DNA of 64,000 nucleotides, from contig JAFCCL010000006.1 in assembly GCA_017610205.1 (NCBI GenBank), positions 1 to 64,000 on the forward strand, read 5' to 3'. Under the pieces are notes generated by a model. It was not told the origin of the DNA. It was given only the letters and a program-made list of their open reading frames with translations, and searched no databases. Shown here piece by piece: positions 25,927-33,590 of the stretch (the stretch's first letter is position 1; each line of letters starts with the position of its first letter). Position numbers and translations under genes: made by a program. This DNA is from Candidatus Iainarchaeum sp. (GTDB lineage: Archaea > Iainarchaeota > Iainarchaeia > Iainarchaeales > GCA-2688035).

Positions 25927-26032
25927 ATGAAAGCAAGCCACAGCCTATTTCTCTTTTTCTTGGGTATTATTCCTCTAGCGCGGCGTGGCGCTGGCGCGCC
26001 ACTATAAGAACCGCGCTGGAAGTTTTTCAATA

Positions 26033-26455
26033 ATGAAGCGTGATTTGGTTAGCGGAGCTTATAGCGTTTATGAATGTGTATATCCTTTAGAGTGGTGTCC
26101 TAAATATAGGTTTAACGTTTTGAGGAAAGAGTCCAGTAAGGTTGATATGGAGGCTATTTTGAAGCAGATAGCAGCAGAGCATGACAGGCATATAGAAGAG
26201 CTTGCTGTCATGCCCGAGCACGTGCATATTGTGGTGCGAGCAAAACCGAGCATGAATCTAAGTAAAGCAACACAGTTGTTGAAAGGCAGAAGTTCGTACG
26301 AGTTTTTTTGCAAGCACCCAAACATGCGTCTGAGATACAGAAAAGGGCATTTTTGGGCTCCAAGTACCTGCTATCTGACGACAGGTGTAGTAGATTTGGA
26401 TAGAACCAGAGCATATGTAAGAAATCAATCAGACATGCCCATCAAGCAACACTAG
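26033..26455 (+). mobile_element. tnpA: IS200-like Y1 (HUH) transposase TnpA
   Basis: MPEHVHIVVRAKPSMNLSKATQLLKGRSSYEFF...GHFWAPSTCYLTTG...TRAYVRNQ. Confidence 0.9.
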
Positions 26456-26745: not shown

Positions 26746-27129
26746 TTGGAGGATATGTTTATAAACAATACTATACATTTAATGTATAGTGTTATTGGGG
26801 TTGTTTGCTTAGCAAAATGGAAGAAGTTTGTAATTCCTTTAACTGCAACAGATTTACTGGATGTGAAGTTGGAAATAGAACGAAACAAGATAGTGAATTT
26901 TTCTTTGAATTACGGGACAAAGATTAGCGAGAGCTTTTTCGAAGTTTACAGGGGTGATACTGCGCATGACTTTTTGCACGAGCAAAGATATCGGATTATA
27001 CCAGAACCAACCCCTATTCCGACAATGGGAAAGGATTTGAATGACGTTTTTAATTTTTACTTGGACCAGATAAAAGAAAATTTTGCACGCTATAAAAGAT
27101 ATTACTTGGAAAGAATGAAAGGAAGGTGA
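26746..27129 (+). CDS. Putative toxin-like protein of an HTH-paired module (start uncertain)
   Basis: SFFEVYRGDTAHDFLHEQRYR...; overlaps start of HTH gene 27126. Confidence 0.4.
   Translation: MEDMFINNTIHLMYSVIGVVCLAKWKKFVIPLTATDLLDVKLEIERNKIVNFSLNYGTKISESFFEVYRGDTAHDFLHEQRYRIIPEPTPIPTMGKDLNDVFNFYLDQIKENFARYKRYYLERMKGR
26770..26790. promoter_or_regulatory. 21-bp palindromic putative operator ACTATACATT-T-AATGTATAGT
   Basis: Perfect inverted repeat just downstream of a TTTATAAA box. Confidence 0.6.
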
Positions 27130-27521
27130 GAAGCATGAAGTATGAAATGACTGACGAAAGATTGGATGCAATCAAGGCCTATCTCAACAAGGTTTGGAAG
27201 CAGCCAAGCAGGTACCCTGATAAAGGAATGATTCTGAGCCTTTCCGACGAAGAAATAACGCAAGTGTTCACAAAGAAAAGGCTTGAATTGGTTAGGTTGA
27301 TTCAAAGCAAGAAATCAAAAAACGCTACAGCGCTAGCAAATCTGGCTGGCAGAAGGCTGAGTGCCGTCATCAGGGACTTGAAACTCTTGGAAAAATTCCA
27401 CATAGTTGAATTGGAAAAAAAGGGAAAAAACATTGTCCCAACAGTCACAAAAGAAATACTAATACTCCCATTAGTGAAACTCAAAACAAGGGCACTGGAA
27501 GAAATAAAGGCAACTACTTAA
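27126..27521 (+). CDS. Winged-HTH DNA-binding protein (putative antitoxin/regulator)
   Basis: NATALANLAGRRLSAVIRDLKLLEKFHIVELEKKGKNIVPTVTKEIL. Confidence 0.65.
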   Translation: MRSMKYEMTDERLDAIKAYLNKVWKQPSRYPDKGMILSLSDEEITQVFTKKRLELVRLIQSKKSKNATALANLAGRRLSAVIRDLKLLEKFHIVELEKKGKNIVPTVTKEILILPLVKLKTRALEEIKATT

Positions 27522-27570: not shown

Positions 27571-27624
27571 GTTTTTAAATAGAAATAGCATATAATTTAT
27601 GTAATTTCACAAAAAACTGAAATT
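27571..27624 (+). promoter_or_regulatory. Putative archaeal promoter (TTTTTAAATAG) with operator-like inverted repeat AATTTCA-N8-TGAAATT
   Basis: TATA-like box about 25 nt upstream of IR 27603-27624; precedes the operon. Confidence 0.5.
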
Positions 27625-27646
27625 TGCGAAATCTGGAGGGGTTGAG

Positions 27647-27736
27647 ATGCTTGGTCGGTTAAGGAGTATAGGAGGTCGAATCTTTGAATGGTTGAGAACT
27701 GTCGTGTACGTAATCAAGCTCTGGCTTGGACTTTAG
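27647..27736 (+). CDS. 29-aa hydrophobic/basic small ORF
   Basis: MLGRLRSIGGRIFEWLRTVVYVIKLWLGL with tggaggggttgag SD-like leader. Confidence 0.45.
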   Translation: MLGRLRSIGGRIFEWLRTVVYVIKLWLGL

Positions 27737-27765
27737 TTTGCTTTAATTTTTTTATGTGAGTTAGA

Positions 27766-27963
27766 ATGGGTAAGCGTAATGCCAATAAGCCAATTGAAAA
27801 CGTTAATTGCCCAAAGTGCAGGCATCACAAAGTTTGGGCTTTACATCGGGAACAAAAGCGTTGCACGAAATGCGGCTACGAGTTTGTGCCAGAGCAAGAA
27901 CAAAATAAGGGCTTGCTTGGGTTTTTAGAAAATGAATTAGTTCGGAGGCTAAACAATGAGTAA
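27766..27963 (+). CDS. Zinc-ribbon small protein
   Basis: CPKCRHHKVWALHREQKRCTKCGYEF. Confidence 0.65.
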   Translation: MGKRNANKPIENVNCPKCRHHKVWALHREQKRCTKCGYEFVPEQEQNKGLLGFLENELVRRLNNE

Positions 27964-28498
27964 AGTAAAAGAAATCAAAAACAGGTTCGTGAACCATGTT
28001 GCTTTGATTGGAAAACAGTGGGGGTTAGGTGAACCCGCTGGAAGAGTTTGGGGCCTGCTGTTGTTCGAAAACAGGTCTTTGACTCAAAGCGAAATCGCTG
28101 AAGAATGCAATTACAGCCTAAGCTTGGTCAGCCCAAGCTTAACCATCCTGGAAAAATGGGGATTGATTGCAGCAGTGGAAAAAAGAGGCAGAGAAAGACT
28201 CTATAAAGCGACAATGTCTTTTTTGGAAGCATTTGAAAAAATACTGCGAAACTTCATGGAATTTAACATCGAGCCAATCATAGAAATGCTTTCAGAAGCA
28301 AAAGACAAAGAAACAAAGAAAAGACTGCAAAAACTGTTAAGTGAATACAAAAAAACCTCGCTGTTATCAAAATTCTTCTTGGGTTTAATAAGAGCAAAGA
28401 AAACCCTAAGCCTAGAGCAATTAAAGAAAGTGCTTGGAGAAGGTGAATTGATTGCGCTTCAACGAAAAATATCAAAGAAAATGCCAACCATTCGATGA
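27956..28498 (+). CDS. MarR/GbsR-like transcriptional regulator
   Basis: WGLGEPAGRVWGLLLFENRSLTQSEIAEECNYSLSLVSPSLTILEKWGLIAAVEKRGRERLYKAT. Confidence 0.85.
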   Translation: MSKVKEIKNRFVNHVALIGKQWGLGEPAGRVWGLLLFENRSLTQSEIAEECNYSLSLVSPSLTILEKWGLIAAVEKRGRERLYKATMSFLEAFEKILRNFMEFNIEPIIEMLSEAKDKETKKRLQKLLSEYKKTSLLSKFFLGLIRAKKTLSLEQLKKVLGEGELIALQRKISKKMPTIR

Positions 28499-28630
28499 AA
28501 TCTACTGCTTTCTAGAGGCACAGGCAAAGCCAAAGGAAAGTAAGGACGCTATTGCAGCAAAGCTCTCCAATCACCTATTCGATAAAATAACACTTAGTAG
28601 TAGGTCGGAAAAAAAGTAATAGGCGATAGA

Positions 28631-30100
28631 ATGATGATTAAAGAAACCCAGTCAATCTGCCCCACTTGCCAAAAGCTGTTGCCGGCAAGAATAGTTGAAG
28701 AAGACAACAAGGTCTTCCTAGAGAAAACTTGCCCAACCCATGGCTTTTTTAGGGAAATCTATTGGTCGGATGCAAAACTGTTTAAGATATTTGACGAATT
28801 TCAGGAAATGGGTTTTACTCCAGAAAACCCCGCCACAAAAATTGAAAAGGGATGCCCATTCGACTGCGGTTTATGTAAGTTGCATGAATCCCAGACACTC
28901 CTCGCTAACATCGACGTAACCAACAGATGCAACCTTAGGTGCAGTTATTGTTTCGCAAACTCTGCAGTAAGCGGCTACTTGTACGAGCCAAGTTTTGGGG
29001 AAATAGAGAAAATGATGGATTTGCTGAGAGCCGAAAAACCATTCCCTGTTCTGGGAATCCAGTTCAGTGGAGGTGAGCCGTTGCTTAGAACCGATATCGT
29101 GGATTTAGTGAAAAAAGCAAGAGAAAAAGGTTTTACACAAGTACTTATTGCCACTAACGGAATTCAGATTGCAAAAAAATTAAAGCTCGCAAAGCAACTG
29201 CAAGACGCAGGCGTTACAACACTTTACATGAAATTCAATGGCCTGACCCCTGAAACAAACACAGAAAACCACGATTTTATTCCACAAATCCTTGAAAACT
29301 GTAGAAAAGCAGGCTTGCAAATAAGCTTGGTGCCAACAATTATAAAAGGATTCAACGACTATGAAGCATACGCAATAATTAAATTCGCTTTGAAGAACCT
29401 GGATATTGTTAGAGCGGTTAACTTTCAGCCAATTTCTTTCTGCGGGAGAATGCCCGCAAAAGAAAGGAACCAAAAAAGATTCACAATACCCTGTCTAATT
29501 AGTGCACTGGAAGAACAGTCAAACGGCACCATTCCAAGAAACGCTTTTTACCCAATTCCAACAGTTGTACCTCTCTCAAAACTGGCTGAGCAACTATCGA
29601 ACCAAAAGCAAGCAATCTTTTCAGCCCACCCACACTGTGGAGCGGCCACATACCTCTTTAAAGACGATGAAAAGGTCATTCCAATAACTGAATTCGTAAA
29701 CGTAACAGCATTAGTAAAACAAATCGGCGAATTATCCAAAGAAAAACAAAAAGGATTAGCGAAAAAAGTTCTAACAGTAAACAAACTGAGAAAAATCCTG
29801 AAAAAAAACATTATAAAAGAAAAAGCCCCAAAATACCTCAAATTAAACAAGCTATTGCTCGAATTGCTGACAGGAAACTTTAACACATTGCTAGAATTTC
29901 ATTTAAAAACACTTTTTGTTGGAGCAATGCACTTCCAAGACAAATACAACCTTGACGTAGCTAGACTAAAAAAATGCGTAATCCACTACGCCACGCCAGA
30001 CGGAAAAATAATCCCCTTCTGCGCATACAATAACCTGGGTTACAGAGAAAAAATCGAAAAAGCACACAGCAAAGAATTAAAACCGGGGACTTTAAAATGA
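28631..30100 (+). CDS. Radical SAM protein resembling tetraether lipid synthase (Tes)/MJ0619-type enzymes
   Basis: SICPTCQKLLPARIVEEDNKVFLEKTCPTHGFF...CPFDCGLC...NRCNLRCSYCFAN...FSGGEPLLR. Confidence 0.75.
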   Translation: MMIKETQSICPTCQKLLPARIVEEDNKVFLEKTCPTHGFFREIYWSDAKLFKIFDEFQEMGFTPENPATKIEKGCPFDCGLCKLHESQTLLANIDVTNRCNLRCSYCFANSAVSGYLYEPSFGEIEKMMDLLRAEKPFPVLGIQFSGGEPLLRTDIVDLVKKAREKGFTQVLIATNGIQIAKKLKLAKQLQDAGVTTLYMKFNGLTPETNTENHDFIPQILENCRKAGLQISLVPTIIKGFNDYEAYAIIKFALKNLDIVRAVNFQPISFCGRMPAKERNQKRFTIPCLISALEEQSNGTIPRNAFYPIPTVVPLSKLAEQLSNQKQAIFSAHPHCGAATYLFKDDEKVIPITEFVNVTALVKQIGELSKEKQKGLAKKVLTVNKLRKILKKNIIKEKAPKYLKLNKLLLELLTGNFNTLLEFHLKTLFVGAMHFQDKYNLDVARLKKCVIHYATPDGKIIPFCAYNNLGYREKIEKAHSKELKPGTLK

Positions 30101-31230
30101 AGGTGAACAAAGCCATGCAAGACATTTGGCAGAAACAAATAGACACCGGCCGGCTTTTAAAGCTCCCTAACAAATTAACAGGAAAGGTTGGAAAGATGAA
30201 AGAATTCAAGGAAACCTACAAGCTAGTACAAAAACTTTCTTCTGTGAACGGATTTGGAGTAAGCAGAGAACTATTGCACAGAACAATGTTTAACTCTGAA
30301 GCACTGCCACCCCTGGGAAAAGAGTATTGGTGGTTTCTATTCATCGGCCAAAACGGAGAAAAGCCAATCCAATTAATGTTCCTCGTTTTCAGAAAACACG
30401 GAAAAAGAATGTCGTTCAACGACAAAAGCATGGTGCTCAAAAGCCATGGCAAAAACAAGTTTCAGGCAGTTACTGCTTGCTGGGTATGGGATGGAAAAAA
30501 ACTGCATGACTTGGGCGACACCAACGCCACAACAACAATCAACTCCAAGAAAAAATCTTTGATTTCAAAAATTTCAAACCACAAAGCGGTTTTTAGAGGA
30601 AAATTTCCAAACTTTGAGCTGAAAATAGGAGACGCCATCAACCTGAACATGACCGAGTTAAAGCGAGTTGACAACAAAGACGCTTACGGCGTATTCTTCC
30701 CCCCCTTTGGCATGGGTTGGGTGAATGCGTTTTCAATAGCCAAAGGCACGGTTTTTGGAAAAGAATTTAAGGGAACAGCACACCTGCAAAAAGTTGTCGG
30801 CATTACAACATTTGGCTGTTTCAACTGGGGAAAAATATTTTTTCAGAAAGGCTCCTCGGTCTCCTTTTTCTGCGTTAAACCAGAAAAAAACTCAAAAAAG
30901 CTCTTTTACCAAGCCATCTCCTTTTACGACCACGAAACCAAAAAAGTCATCAAATTCAAAAGACCAAAGCTAAAAATATTGAAAAAAGAGGGCAAGAAAA
31001 AACCCGAATGGGTCATTACCGGCCGCGATAAAGACAAAGAACTCAAAATTGTGCTGGAAACTTACGCAGAAAAACAATTCACTATGAAAGACGGTGAATG
31101 GCAAGTCTACATCGAGTACGCTGTAACGGCAAAAGAATTCAGCTTAAAAACCAAAGACAGGAAAACCAGCCTGAATGGTTTGGGCAGGGGCGTTGGAAAT
31201 TTTGAAGACGCCTACGGGTTTGTGTTCTAA
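30097..31230 (+). CDS. Protein of unknown function, paralog 1 (possibly CrtC/AttH lipocalin-like)
   Basis: EYWWFLFIG...KGTAHLQKVVG...GLGRGVGNFEDAYGFVF; shares motifs with next ORF. Confidence 0.6.
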   Translation: MKVNKAMQDIWQKQIDTGRLLKLPNKLTGKVGKMKEFKETYKLVQKLSSVNGFGVSRELLHRTMFNSEALPPLGKEYWWFLFIGQNGEKPIQLMFLVFRKHGKRMSFNDKSMVLKSHGKNKFQAVTACWVWDGKKLHDLGDTNATTTINSKKKSLISKISNHKAVFRGKFPNFELKIGDAINLNMTELKRVDNKDAYGVFFPPFGMGWVNAFSIAKGTVFGKEFKGTAHLQKVVGITTFGCFNWGKIFFQKGSSVSFFCVKPEKNSKKLFYQAISFYDHETKKVIKFKRPKLKILKKEGKKKPEWVITGRDKDKELKIVLETYAEKQFTMKDGEWQVYIEYAVTAKEFSLKTKDRKTSLNGLGRGVGNFEDAYGFVF

Positions 31231-31247
31231 AAAAATGGTGATTTATA

Positions 31248-32378
31248 TTGATTGAGACAAAGGTAAAAAAAATCAGCGAAAAAGAAAGAAACACCCTGTA
31301 CGAAAGAATCTGGGAAATCGATCTAAAGGATAAGAAACCTGGCACTTGGTGGTGGTGGTTTTGGATTTTCTTCATAGAAAACAAAGACAATCAAAGCAAA
31401 CCGCAACAGCTAATGGTGCTGTGGTCAACAAAAAATGACAGCAAAATCAAATGCAACGATCTTACCTTAAAATTAGACAACGAAATCAAGGTCCAAAAAA
31501 ACAAAAGCATTTTCAATGGTGCAGCAGCGGCATGGTACTTCGACGGGAAGAGAATGCACGAAGACTATATTCTGGAAAACTGTGACATAACCCTGAGCAA
31601 AAAACCATACGCCCTAGTTTCAGAATCAAAAAACAAGACGTTTTTCTGTGAAAAAAACAACAAGTTTGTAGTGCAAATTAACAAAGGCAAAAAAGAATTT
31701 GTTTTTAATTCAGAAATCGAAGCCAACAACGAATTTGTTGCCCCAACTCTTACCCAAAGCAATTACCTCAACGGCGCCTTTAGCTACAAAGTTCTTCGAA
31801 TGCCAAGACTGGATTTTAATGGTGTAATCAAAAGCCAAGGAAAACAACAAGGCATCAAGGGAACAGCATATTTCCAGCAAGTAGTTGTTAACACCCCCTT
31901 GTTTCCTTGGTATTGGGGAATATTCCATTTCAGGAACGGCAGCATAGTCTCCTACTTCAACCCGCACATTGGAACAGCAATGATAAAAGACAATCTGACA
32001 AAAGCATTACTCAGCAACGGCAACCTTTCACTAAAAAAAGGAATATACTTCTTCGACAAAAAAGCAAAGAAACTGCACCTGTTTAAAAAAATTAAAATCA
32101 AAAAACAGATAAATCAAAAAAACCAGCCAGTATTCAAAGTCAGCGGAGAAAACAAAGACACAAAAATTTCTTTTACCGTTGACTGCTACGCCGATGCATT
32201 CTGGAAATTCGAAAAAAAGTTTCTGGGGCTGGTTAAAATGCGATTAAAGTACAACGAGTACCCTGCCAAAATAACCCAATTCAACTTGCAGAACAAACAA
32301 GGCAAAACGCTGACATCACTAAAAGACTTGGGTGCAGGGATAGGCAATGCGGAACATTCGTGGGGGCTTTTGGCATGA
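31248..32378 (+). CDS. Protein of unknown function, paralog 2 (possibly CrtC/AttH lipocalin-like)
   Basis: TWWWWFWIFFIE...KGTAYFQQVVV...FPWYWGIFHF...DLGAGIGNAEHSWGLLA. Confidence 0.6.
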   Translation: MIETKVKKISEKERNTLYERIWEIDLKDKKPGTWWWWFWIFFIENKDNQSKPQQLMVLWSTKNDSKIKCNDLTLKLDNEIKVQKNKSIFNGAAAAWYFDGKRMHEDYILENCDITLSKKPYALVSESKNKTFFCEKNNKFVVQINKGKKEFVFNSEIEANNEFVAPTLTQSNYLNGAFSYKVLRMPRLDFNGVIKSQGKQQGIKGTAYFQQVVVNTPLFPWYWGIFHFRNGSIVSYFNPHIGTAMIKDNLTKALLSNGNLSLKKGIYFFDKKAKKLHLFKKIKIKKQINQKNQPVFKVSGENKDTKISFTVDCYADAFWKFEKKFLGLVKMRLKYNEYPAKITQFNLQNKQGKTLTSLKDLGAGIGNAEHSWGLLA

Positions 32379-33265
32379 CTGCAAAAAATAAAATAAAAGT
32401 GATTGCAAGAAAAATCAAAGACTTAATCGCACTAATGAGACCAAACGCCTGGTTTGTAACCGTTTTCTCCCTAAGCATTGGAGCAGTATTCGCCCTGCCC
32501 AATACCACCCTTACCACTGAAACAGGCTTAAAGTTTCTCTTCCTGTGCTTTGCTTTCGCTCCATTCATTGCAGGTGGCCTATACGCATTAAACGATGTCA
32601 ATGACAGAAAAGTGGACCAAAGAAACCCGGATAAAGCCCGCAGGCCAATTGCCAGCGGAAGAATAACCCCAATTCAAGGAATAATCTTTTCACTAATCTT
32701 ACTAACCGTTGGCTGTTTTTTGGCCCTGCAAATTTCCTTCATGCACCTTATTTTCGCTTTAATGCTAATTTTTTTGCAACTAATCTATTCAATGCCTCCA
32801 ATAAGATTAAAAGAAACATCAATCGACTTCTTGTTCTCAGGTCCATTAAACCACATGATTAGGTTTACAGCAGCATGGATTCTATTCAAACCAATTACCC
32901 AAATTCCACTGCTCTTACTAGCAAGCTTATTCACATTATACTGTGTTGCATACATTTACTACAAGCTAGTTGACAAAGAATTCACGCCAAAAAAATCGAT
33001 AGCAAGAAACAAAAACATACAAACACAACTAAACTACGCAACCGCAATAGGAATAGGCCTAATGTTCGCCTCAATCCTCCTGCTAAAAGAAGTAGACTTC
33101 GTTTTCATCGCATGCCCAACCTTTCTAACCTTAGCCCTCCTCACGCAAGCTGCCATACCCAGCATGAAAAAAATTGGGTTAATGCGCAGCCTCTTCTATG
33201 GATACGCGCCCTTCAGCCTAATGCTTGGAGTAGTAAGCCTATGGGTGCTAATAATAATGTTCTAA
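32375..33265 (+). CDS. UbiA-family prenyltransferase
   Basis: MRPNAWFVTVFSLSIGAV...LNDVNDRKVDQRNPDKARRPIASGRI; polytopic. Confidence 0.9.
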   Translation: MTAKNKIKVIARKIKDLIALMRPNAWFVTVFSLSIGAVFALPNTTLTTETGLKFLFLCFAFAPFIAGGLYALNDVNDRKVDQRNPDKARRPIASGRITPIQGIIFSLILLTVGCFLALQISFMHLIFALMLIFLQLIYSMPPIRLKETSIDFLFSGPLNHMIRFTAAWILFKPITQIPLLLLASLFTLYCVAYIYYKLVDKEFTPKKSIARNKNIQTQLNYATAIGIGLMFASILLLKEVDFVFIACPTFLTLALLTQAAIPSMKKIGLMRSLFYGYAPFSLMLGVVSLWVLIIMF

Positions 33266-33284
33266 AACAAACGGAAGACTCAAA

Positions 33285-33590
33285 ATGACAACACCAAAAC
33301 CCATCCTAAAGGATTACTTAAATGACATTACGCAATCCCAATGGAACGCGTTCATACATGGCCGGTTAAAAATTTCAGATTACGTCAAACAAAACAAATT
33401 TTGGATCCAGTTATTTGGAAAAACACGCCAAATACGCAACGAAGTCAACAAGTACACACCAGAACAAATACTGCAAATGCTCAAACAGAACAGGGCAGAT
33501 CTATCAATAGGAGACGAGCAAAAAGCCATCAAACGAATACGTGAAGAATTAAACGTTACCCAAAAAATCCTAGAAGAATTCAAATTCTGA
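33285..33590 (+). CDS. Hypothetical protein at end of island operon
   Basis: ORF 20 nt after ubiA-like gene. Confidence 0.5.
   Translation: MTTPKPILKDYLNDITQSQWNAFIHGRLKISDYVKQNKFWIQLFGKTRQIRNEVNKYTPEQILQMLKQNRADLSIGDEQKAIKRIREELNVTQKILEEFKF

Follow-up and report, generated by a model that had tools for sequence, protein, structure and literature searches.

A putative repressor-controlled isoprenoid-tailoring operon in Candidatus Iainarchaeum sp. that unites a second tetraether synthase with two proteins of predicted CrtC/AttH fold

Does the compact gene run at positions 27571–33590 of a Candidatus Iainarchaeum sp. contig encode a regulated route to a modified membrane isoprenoid? The run lies within a 64,000-nt stretch of DNA (the window) on contig C10 (JAFCCL010000006.1) of G000, a 1.37-Mb archaeal genome; genomes, contigs, loci, and families are cited below by our own handles (G, C, L, and f). 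A preliminary description of the window had proposed a co-directional, packed run of open reading frames (ORFs) with several overlaps of 4 nt or less. All of these ORFs are present at the same coordinates as a single co-directional run on the + strand, in the order 29-aa microprotein, zinc ribbon, GbsR/MarR-like regulator, Tes, two paralogs (p1 and p2), UbiA, and the 33285 ORF (Table 1). The stop and start codons of Tes and p1 overlap as ATGA (30097–30100), as do those of p2 and UbiA (32375–32378), provided that UbiA starts at the ATG at 32375 and not at the mechanical GTG at 32360. Gaps of 132, 17, and 19 nt separate regulator and Tes, p1 and p2, and UbiA and the 33285 ORF, respectively. Tes joins lipid tails, UbiA transfers prenyl groups, and proteins of the CrtC fold have isoprenoids as ligands or substrates. 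Judged by its sequence, the operon is probably a self-contained, repressor-controlled module for tailoring the isoprenoid component of this archaeon's membrane. The earlier proposal that its members jointly make or tailor a membrane isoprenoid under regulator control is supported to this extent; the product and reactions are predictions, and no role is supported for the 33285 ORF.

The radical S-adenosylmethionine (SAM) enzyme, first described as Tes-like, falls within Tes itself. It exceeds the curated cut-off of NCBIfam NF045702 (450 bits) over residues 6–482 of 489 and matches the GDGT-MAS structure (MJ0619, PDB 7TOL; PMC9433317, PMC8941075; scores in Table 1). In alignment it keeps all of the catalytic and metal-binding residues of GDGT-MAS, as listed in PMC9433317: the CX2CX20CX2H rubredoxin motif, the N-terminal [Fe4S4]N cysteines, the CX3CX2C motif, the C-terminal cluster ligands, Met439, and Tyr459. 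By these signatures the protein is a tetraether synthase, with C–C coupling of lipid tails as its predicted reaction. We rejected the operon Tes as the housekeeping gene, as the genus has another Tes, located in the host genome at G000:C24, that clusters with the genus Tes in the tree. The operon copy groups with two copies from G054 (100/100 support) in a clade of its own, which in this order is otherwise found only in G054; it is 61% identical to those copies and 45% identical to the genus copies. A p2-type protein neighbors one of the two G054 copies, and a UbiA the other. The operon enzyme shares its residues with Tes/GDGT-MAS and differs in being the second copy of its genome, in its separate clade, and in its operonic arrangement with p1, p2, and UbiA under a regulator.

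The regulator is a winged-helix protein, matched by several winged helix-turn-helix (wHTH) models at E values of 4e-4 to 6e-7, each below its curated cut-off. It resembles the GbsR/CudC regulators in its wHTH and its location in cis, a weak similarity (E = 5.5e-7, below cut-off), and departs from them in being tied to lipid enzymes instead of choline/betaine genes and in having its own operator. Members of the regulator family adjoin Tes in about 14 genomes from several phyla. Within the order, six of seven weak relatives beyond the close group adjoin Tes, mostly divergently and with 98–149 nt between; in a second genome set the regulator adjoins Tes in G075, G077, G082, G085, G086, G095, and G099, and shares the Tes operon in G080. 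In Methanophagales and Methanosarcinales (L190, L194), relatives of the regulator head operons that encode CARDB-type exported proteins along with MMPL or ABC/MacB-type exporters.

A TATA-like box and an operator-like repeat had been noted ahead of the operon, and both the box, TTTTTAAATA, and the palindrome at 27603–27626 are conserved in other genomes. Next to the regulator, between the TATA box and the start, the window, G002, G056–G059, and G075 all carry the conserved palindrome TTCAYNAAAAACTGAAAT; the pattern was derived from these seven genomes, and G075 has two sites. The TATA-like box is matched by TTTTTAAA in G002 and G059, about 30 nt ahead of the operator, and by TTTTAAAC in G056–G058. 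In the window the operator starts ~26 nt past the TATA center, where transcription is expected to start, and its position would therefore suit repression. Its core, TTCACAAAAAACTGAAATTTG, occurs once in the window (chance expectation 0.03 with up to two mismatches), and the host genome has one operator copy, directly after the TATA box. Independent matches were found in G077, where an exact copy lies between regulator and Tes, and in G080, where a copy with one mismatch closely follows the regulator. A pattern search of about 80 genomes returned zero further exact matches away from the regulator; the remaining one-mismatch matches number nine, about equal to the seven of a reversed-pattern control. 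In several Diapherotrites (L017, L019, L020, L021, L037), the intergenic region of a divergent housekeeping Tes and its regulator has another palindrome-like stretch, AACTTTTA...TAAAAGTT, which is probably the operator of that housekeeping-Tes-linked regulator subgroup.

After the operator, seven genomes (window; L009, L149–L152, L154) have a tiny ORF of 18–29 aa, preceded by a good ribosome-binding site, for a Trp/Lys-rich amphipathic peptide. Counterparts of the window microprotein occupy the same place in six other genomes (G002, G050, G056–G059), and in G056 and G058 the product is the amphipathic MLDWLKSLWEKIKSWFKS. It is possibly a membrane-active or sensing microprotein. The zinc-ribbon gene that follows is found in G002 and absent in G056–G059.

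The two genes behind Tes, p1 and p2, encode homologous proteins (27% identity, E = 1e-18). Profile searches assigned neither to a Pfam or NCBIfam family; the CrtC, Lipocalin_9, and DUF2006 models gave no match at E ≤ 0.1 for p1 and p2, and none at E ≤ 1 for seven family members. No PDB chain was matched by sequence, even using a 37-member profile. AlphaFold models were built from 7 sequences for p2 (pLDDT 75.6) and from 32 for p1 (pLDDT 82). Foldseek returned the AttH protein NE1406 (2ICH) as the best match of both paralogs (E = 1e-10 for p2 and 2e-9 for p1), followed for both by the Fsa2/Phm7 Diels-Alderases, kievitone hydratase, and 25-phosphosteroid lyase. These predicted models confirm, at fold-class level (TM-scores 0.4–0.6), the double lipocalin-like CrtC/AttH fold that had been suggested for the paralogs. 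With CrtC, which acts on isoprenoids, and AttH/DUF2006 proteins (NE1406, 2ICH; PMC2954199, PMC4717167), p1 and p2 share the two-domain lipocalin-like fold of their models; they differ in lacking a sequence match, in being confined to archaea in our scan, and apparently in their conserved residues. Kievitone hydratase (7A0Q/7A0T) and 25-phosphosteroid lyase (9FZN/9G2I), which work on prenyl or isoprenoid side chains (PMC11061730), and the Fsa2/Phm7/CghA Diels-Alderases belong to the same fold class as the models, at ~10% identity and TM 0.4–0.55, and come from other lineages with other substrates.

A collection scan recovered 37 loci of the p1/p2 family, nearly all labeled archaea: Diapherotrites, Aenigmatarchaeota, Nanohaloarchaeota, Undinarchaeota, Micrarchaeota, Methanophagales, Methanosarcinales, Thermoplasmata, and Poseidoniales. 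One locus titled Chloroflexota bacterium (L047, DAOWAC010000028.1) is the same contig as G002:C149, from the archaeal genus of the window, and its title or binning looks wrong. By these records the family is archaea-only within the scan. The p1 and p2 subfamilies split at 100/100 support in the tree and both have relatives elsewhere, for which reasons a recent tandem duplication was rejected. The genes are adjacent and homologous, as the term tandem paralogs had implied; by sequence they are two ancient subfamilies of one family, long separate. Members of p2 conserve the motifs WWWFW, W-Y-W-G-x-x-H, Y-x-E-Y-P, and G-N-A-E-H, and over the 37 loci the polar residues H227, Q210, Y335, E337, Y338, and E369 are invariant. 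In all 14 p1 proteins examined, the first histidine is gone and Asp replaces the second (the His227 and His370 equivalents), and nearly all of the 14 share L-P-x-x-G-K-E-Y-W (LPPxGKEYW).

The p1 gene either overlaps Tes or lies immediately next to it in the window, G075 (L106), G080 (L189), and G254 (L225), with Tes drawn from two different clades, and in G227 and G195 a p1 of the window-p1 clade follows a B12-binding radical SAM enzyme (best models HpnJ/BchE, below cut-off). The B12 enzyme of G195 is itself preceded by a SPASM radical SAM enzyme of the same type as that in the regulator–UbiA operons of family f17. In G054 a Tes from the clade of the operon copy has a p2-type protein next to it, and p2-type genes adjoin geranylgeranyl reductase (GGR) in Methanosarcinales, Naiadarchaeum, and G252 (L057, L058, L077, L226), an adjacency that hints independently at isoprenoid substrates. 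A Methanophagales radical SAM protein beside p2 was considered as a lipid enzyme and rejected, being a KamA-like aminomutase.

UbiA, as originally named, scores above the PF01040 gathering score (84.3 bits vs. 34.2, E = 1e-23). Its first Asp-rich motif, NDxxDxxxD, is intact (ALNDVNDRKVD); the second, DxxxD, was not found, with KLVDKEFTPKKS in its place, and related UbiAs of the order likewise lack DxxxD. The best models below cut-off are ChlG/BchG and decaprenyl-phosphate phosphoribosyltransferase. A role as DGGGP synthase was rejected on two grounds, namely that ChlG/BchG score best and that the genome has another, DGGGP-synthase-like UbiA as its DGGGPS candidate (L001); the host genome also has GGR genes. 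Together with the regulator-linked UbiAs of f17, the operon UbiA forms its own clade (99/98), and the G054 UbiA beside Tes, which falls in the order's general UbiA group, was rejected as its ortholog. The protein shares a fold family and the first Asp-rich motif with ChlG, DPPR synthase, and DGGGPS, and differs from them in its separate clade and altered second motif.

The preliminary description had left conservation of the neighborhood as a check. The operon recurs in parts: p1 with Tes in three other genomes, p1 with the B12 radical SAM enzyme in two, p2 with Tes in G054, regulator with UbiA in four to five, and regulator with Tes as given above. Of the three outcomes that the preliminary description had named as refuting (paralogs of an unrelated fold with no hydrophobic pocket, a radical SAM enzyme outside the lipid-acting clades, a neighborhood found in no other genome), none was observed. 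Tes itself does not always follow. In G002, of the same genus, the regulator, p1, p2, and UbiA are kept with no Tes at the locus; the two loci align at 86% on either side of Tes, and the 1.6 kb of the window between these flanks correspond to only about 98 bp in G002. From this alignment, Tes was gained in the window lineage or lost in G002, and Tes as an invariant operon member was rejected. In f17 the arrangement is regulator, UbiA, and SPASM radical SAM enzyme; in one f17 genome (G057; L152, 1190–2067), UbiA is broken by a stop and a frame shift with its neighbors intact. The SPASM enzyme of f17 and G195 resembles the GMGT synthase Gms (PMC11186832) in its helical N-terminus, radical SAM domain, SPASM domain, and AhbD-like character, with radical SAM cysteines at 124/128/131 vs. 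C123/C127 in Gms; the likeness is one of domain layout and cysteine numbering only, and the enzyme is absent from the window operon. Clusters in G075 and G080 are without UbiA, the latter comprising regulator, CARDB exported protein, FtsX/MacB-type ABC permease, ATPase, p1, and Tes. Since the radical SAM enzyme swaps between species (Tes, SPASM type, B12 type), one regulator or partner set could impose different C–C bond chemistries.

These observations can be assembled into a working mechanism. The regulator would bind the palindrome over the transcription start and keep its own operon repressed; a membrane or hydrophobic signal would lift this repression. The second Tes would then link lipid tails into tetraethers, with p1 as its lipid-presenting or specificity partner, a role suggested by the loss of the conserved histidines and by neighbors that are radical SAM lipid enzymes. 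The p2 protein may carry out acid-base chemistry of the hydratase/dehydratase type on isoprenoid double bonds or tertiary alcohols, and UbiA would move a prenyl chain onto an acceptor. Our boldest proposal is a tentative one that we hold at somewhat worse than even chances: p1 and p2 may constitute a novel class of proteins for archaeal membrane lipids. In it, p1 would be the first partner protein known to be dedicated to radical SAM lipid enzymes (Tes among them), and p2 a hydratase/dehydratase-like enzyme acting on archaeal isoprenoid tails; a Tes-specific repressor and operator would complete a switchable module, whose product would be a tetraether variant that so far lacks assigned genes.

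Several observations weigh against a tetraether-centered module. Most p2 genes stand alone, and no Tes was found in the Poseidoniales genomes with p2, so that the p2 substrate need not be a tetraether. The Tes-free locus of G002 implies that Tes is not essential to the remaining genes, and TM-scores of 0.4–0.6, being a fold-class match, mean that the reaction of p1 or p2 is not readable from the fold.

The main rival, to which we assign roughly one chance in a handful, is an envelope-stress operon in which the regulator family chiefly answers membrane stress via exporters, p1 and p2 are non-catalytic, lipocalin-like carriers of lipids or hydrophobes, and Tes and UbiA are merely co-regulated. 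The company of regulator relatives with CARDB proteins and exporters fits this explanation, as do the G080 operon, which unites regulator, CARDB, permease, and ABC ATPase with p1 and Tes, the conserved amphipathic microprotein after the operator, and the absence of conserved histidines in p1. However, the invariant polar set of p2 over 37 loci is enzyme-like and unusual for a pure carrier, and the window operon has no transporter gene. An improbable further alternative is a quinone or other small isoprenoid pathway, with UbiA prenylating a polar acceptor, p1 and p2 processing the prenyl chain in the manner of quinone or photosynthetic-pigment synthesis, and Tes incidental. It would account for the sub-cut-off models that UbiA prefers and for p2 beside GGR in several genomes, but in most genomes the regulator, p1, and operator track Tes and not UbiA, and the operon holds no quinone or pigment genes. 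That unrelated genes were juxtaposed by chance in a small genome seems to us highly implausible: the missing Tes in G002 and missing UbiA in G075 and G080 are what chance would allow, yet the ATGA overlaps, an operator common to at least two phyla, and p1–Tes and regulator–Tes adjacency repeated across phyla speak against it. We retain the repressor-controlled isoprenoid module as the probable explanation.

Table 1 Features of the operon and its promoter region in the window.
Feature	Position	Strand	Evidence
TATA-like box TTTTTAAATA	27572–27581	+	Sequence
Operator: inverted repeat AATTTCA-N8-TGAAATT + TG	27603–27626 (repeat 27603–27624)	+	Unique in window, shared with other genomes
29-aa microprotein MLGRLRSIGGRIFEWLRTVVYVIKLWLGL, GGAGG ribosome-binding site	27647–27736	+	Counterpart ORFs in relatives
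Zinc-ribbon protein, 65 aa	27766–27963	+	Zinc-ribbon matches, all sub-threshold
GbsR/MarR-like winged-helix regulator	27956–28498	+	CudC/GbsR-type model E = 5.5e-7, below cut-off
Second Tes of the genome (predicted tetraether synthase)	28631–30100	+	NF045702 652.8 bits; 7TOL E = 7e-144
p1, predicted CrtC/AttH fold, radical-SAM-linked subfamily	30097–31230	+	Predicted model, Foldseek, tree
p2, predicted CrtC/AttH fold, widespread archaeal subfamily	31248–32378	+	Predicted model, Foldseek, conserved motifs
UbiA-family prenyltransferase	32375–33265 (mechanical ORF from 32360)	+	PF01040
101-aa ORF, possibly last operon gene	33285–33590	+	Co-directional, 19-nt gap

The 33285 ORF matched no family in Pfam and NCBIfam profile searches. 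Upstream of the operon, an overlapping pair of genes (DUF7718 and HVO_A0114-type wHTH; 26746–27521) is possibly a small two-gene module, and ~1.1 kb upstream an ORF with an HVHIVV stretch (25985–26455) looks, by eye, like an IS200/IS605-type transposase.

Tes, UbiA, and the CrtC/AttH fold are already known. No description of a Tes-tied regulator–operator pair, of the p1/p2 family, or of an interchangeable radical SAM partner was found in the open-access literature searched (most subscription journals lie outside this search), and nothing was found there on hydroxyarchaeol together with a hydratase. The locus bears on how archaea switch tetraether synthesis on and off, and on which proteins assist radical SAM enzymes in their action on membrane lipids. 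To these questions it brings a regulator–operator pair next to Tes in several DPANN phyla and an unnamed protein family that accompanies Tes as well as further radical SAM enzymes. A natural experiment is offered by the sister species, one having the operonic Tes and the other lacking it. Because related archaea employ this switch and this protein next to further lipid-modifying enzymes, both the regulation and the chemistry of archaeal membranes become open to experiment.

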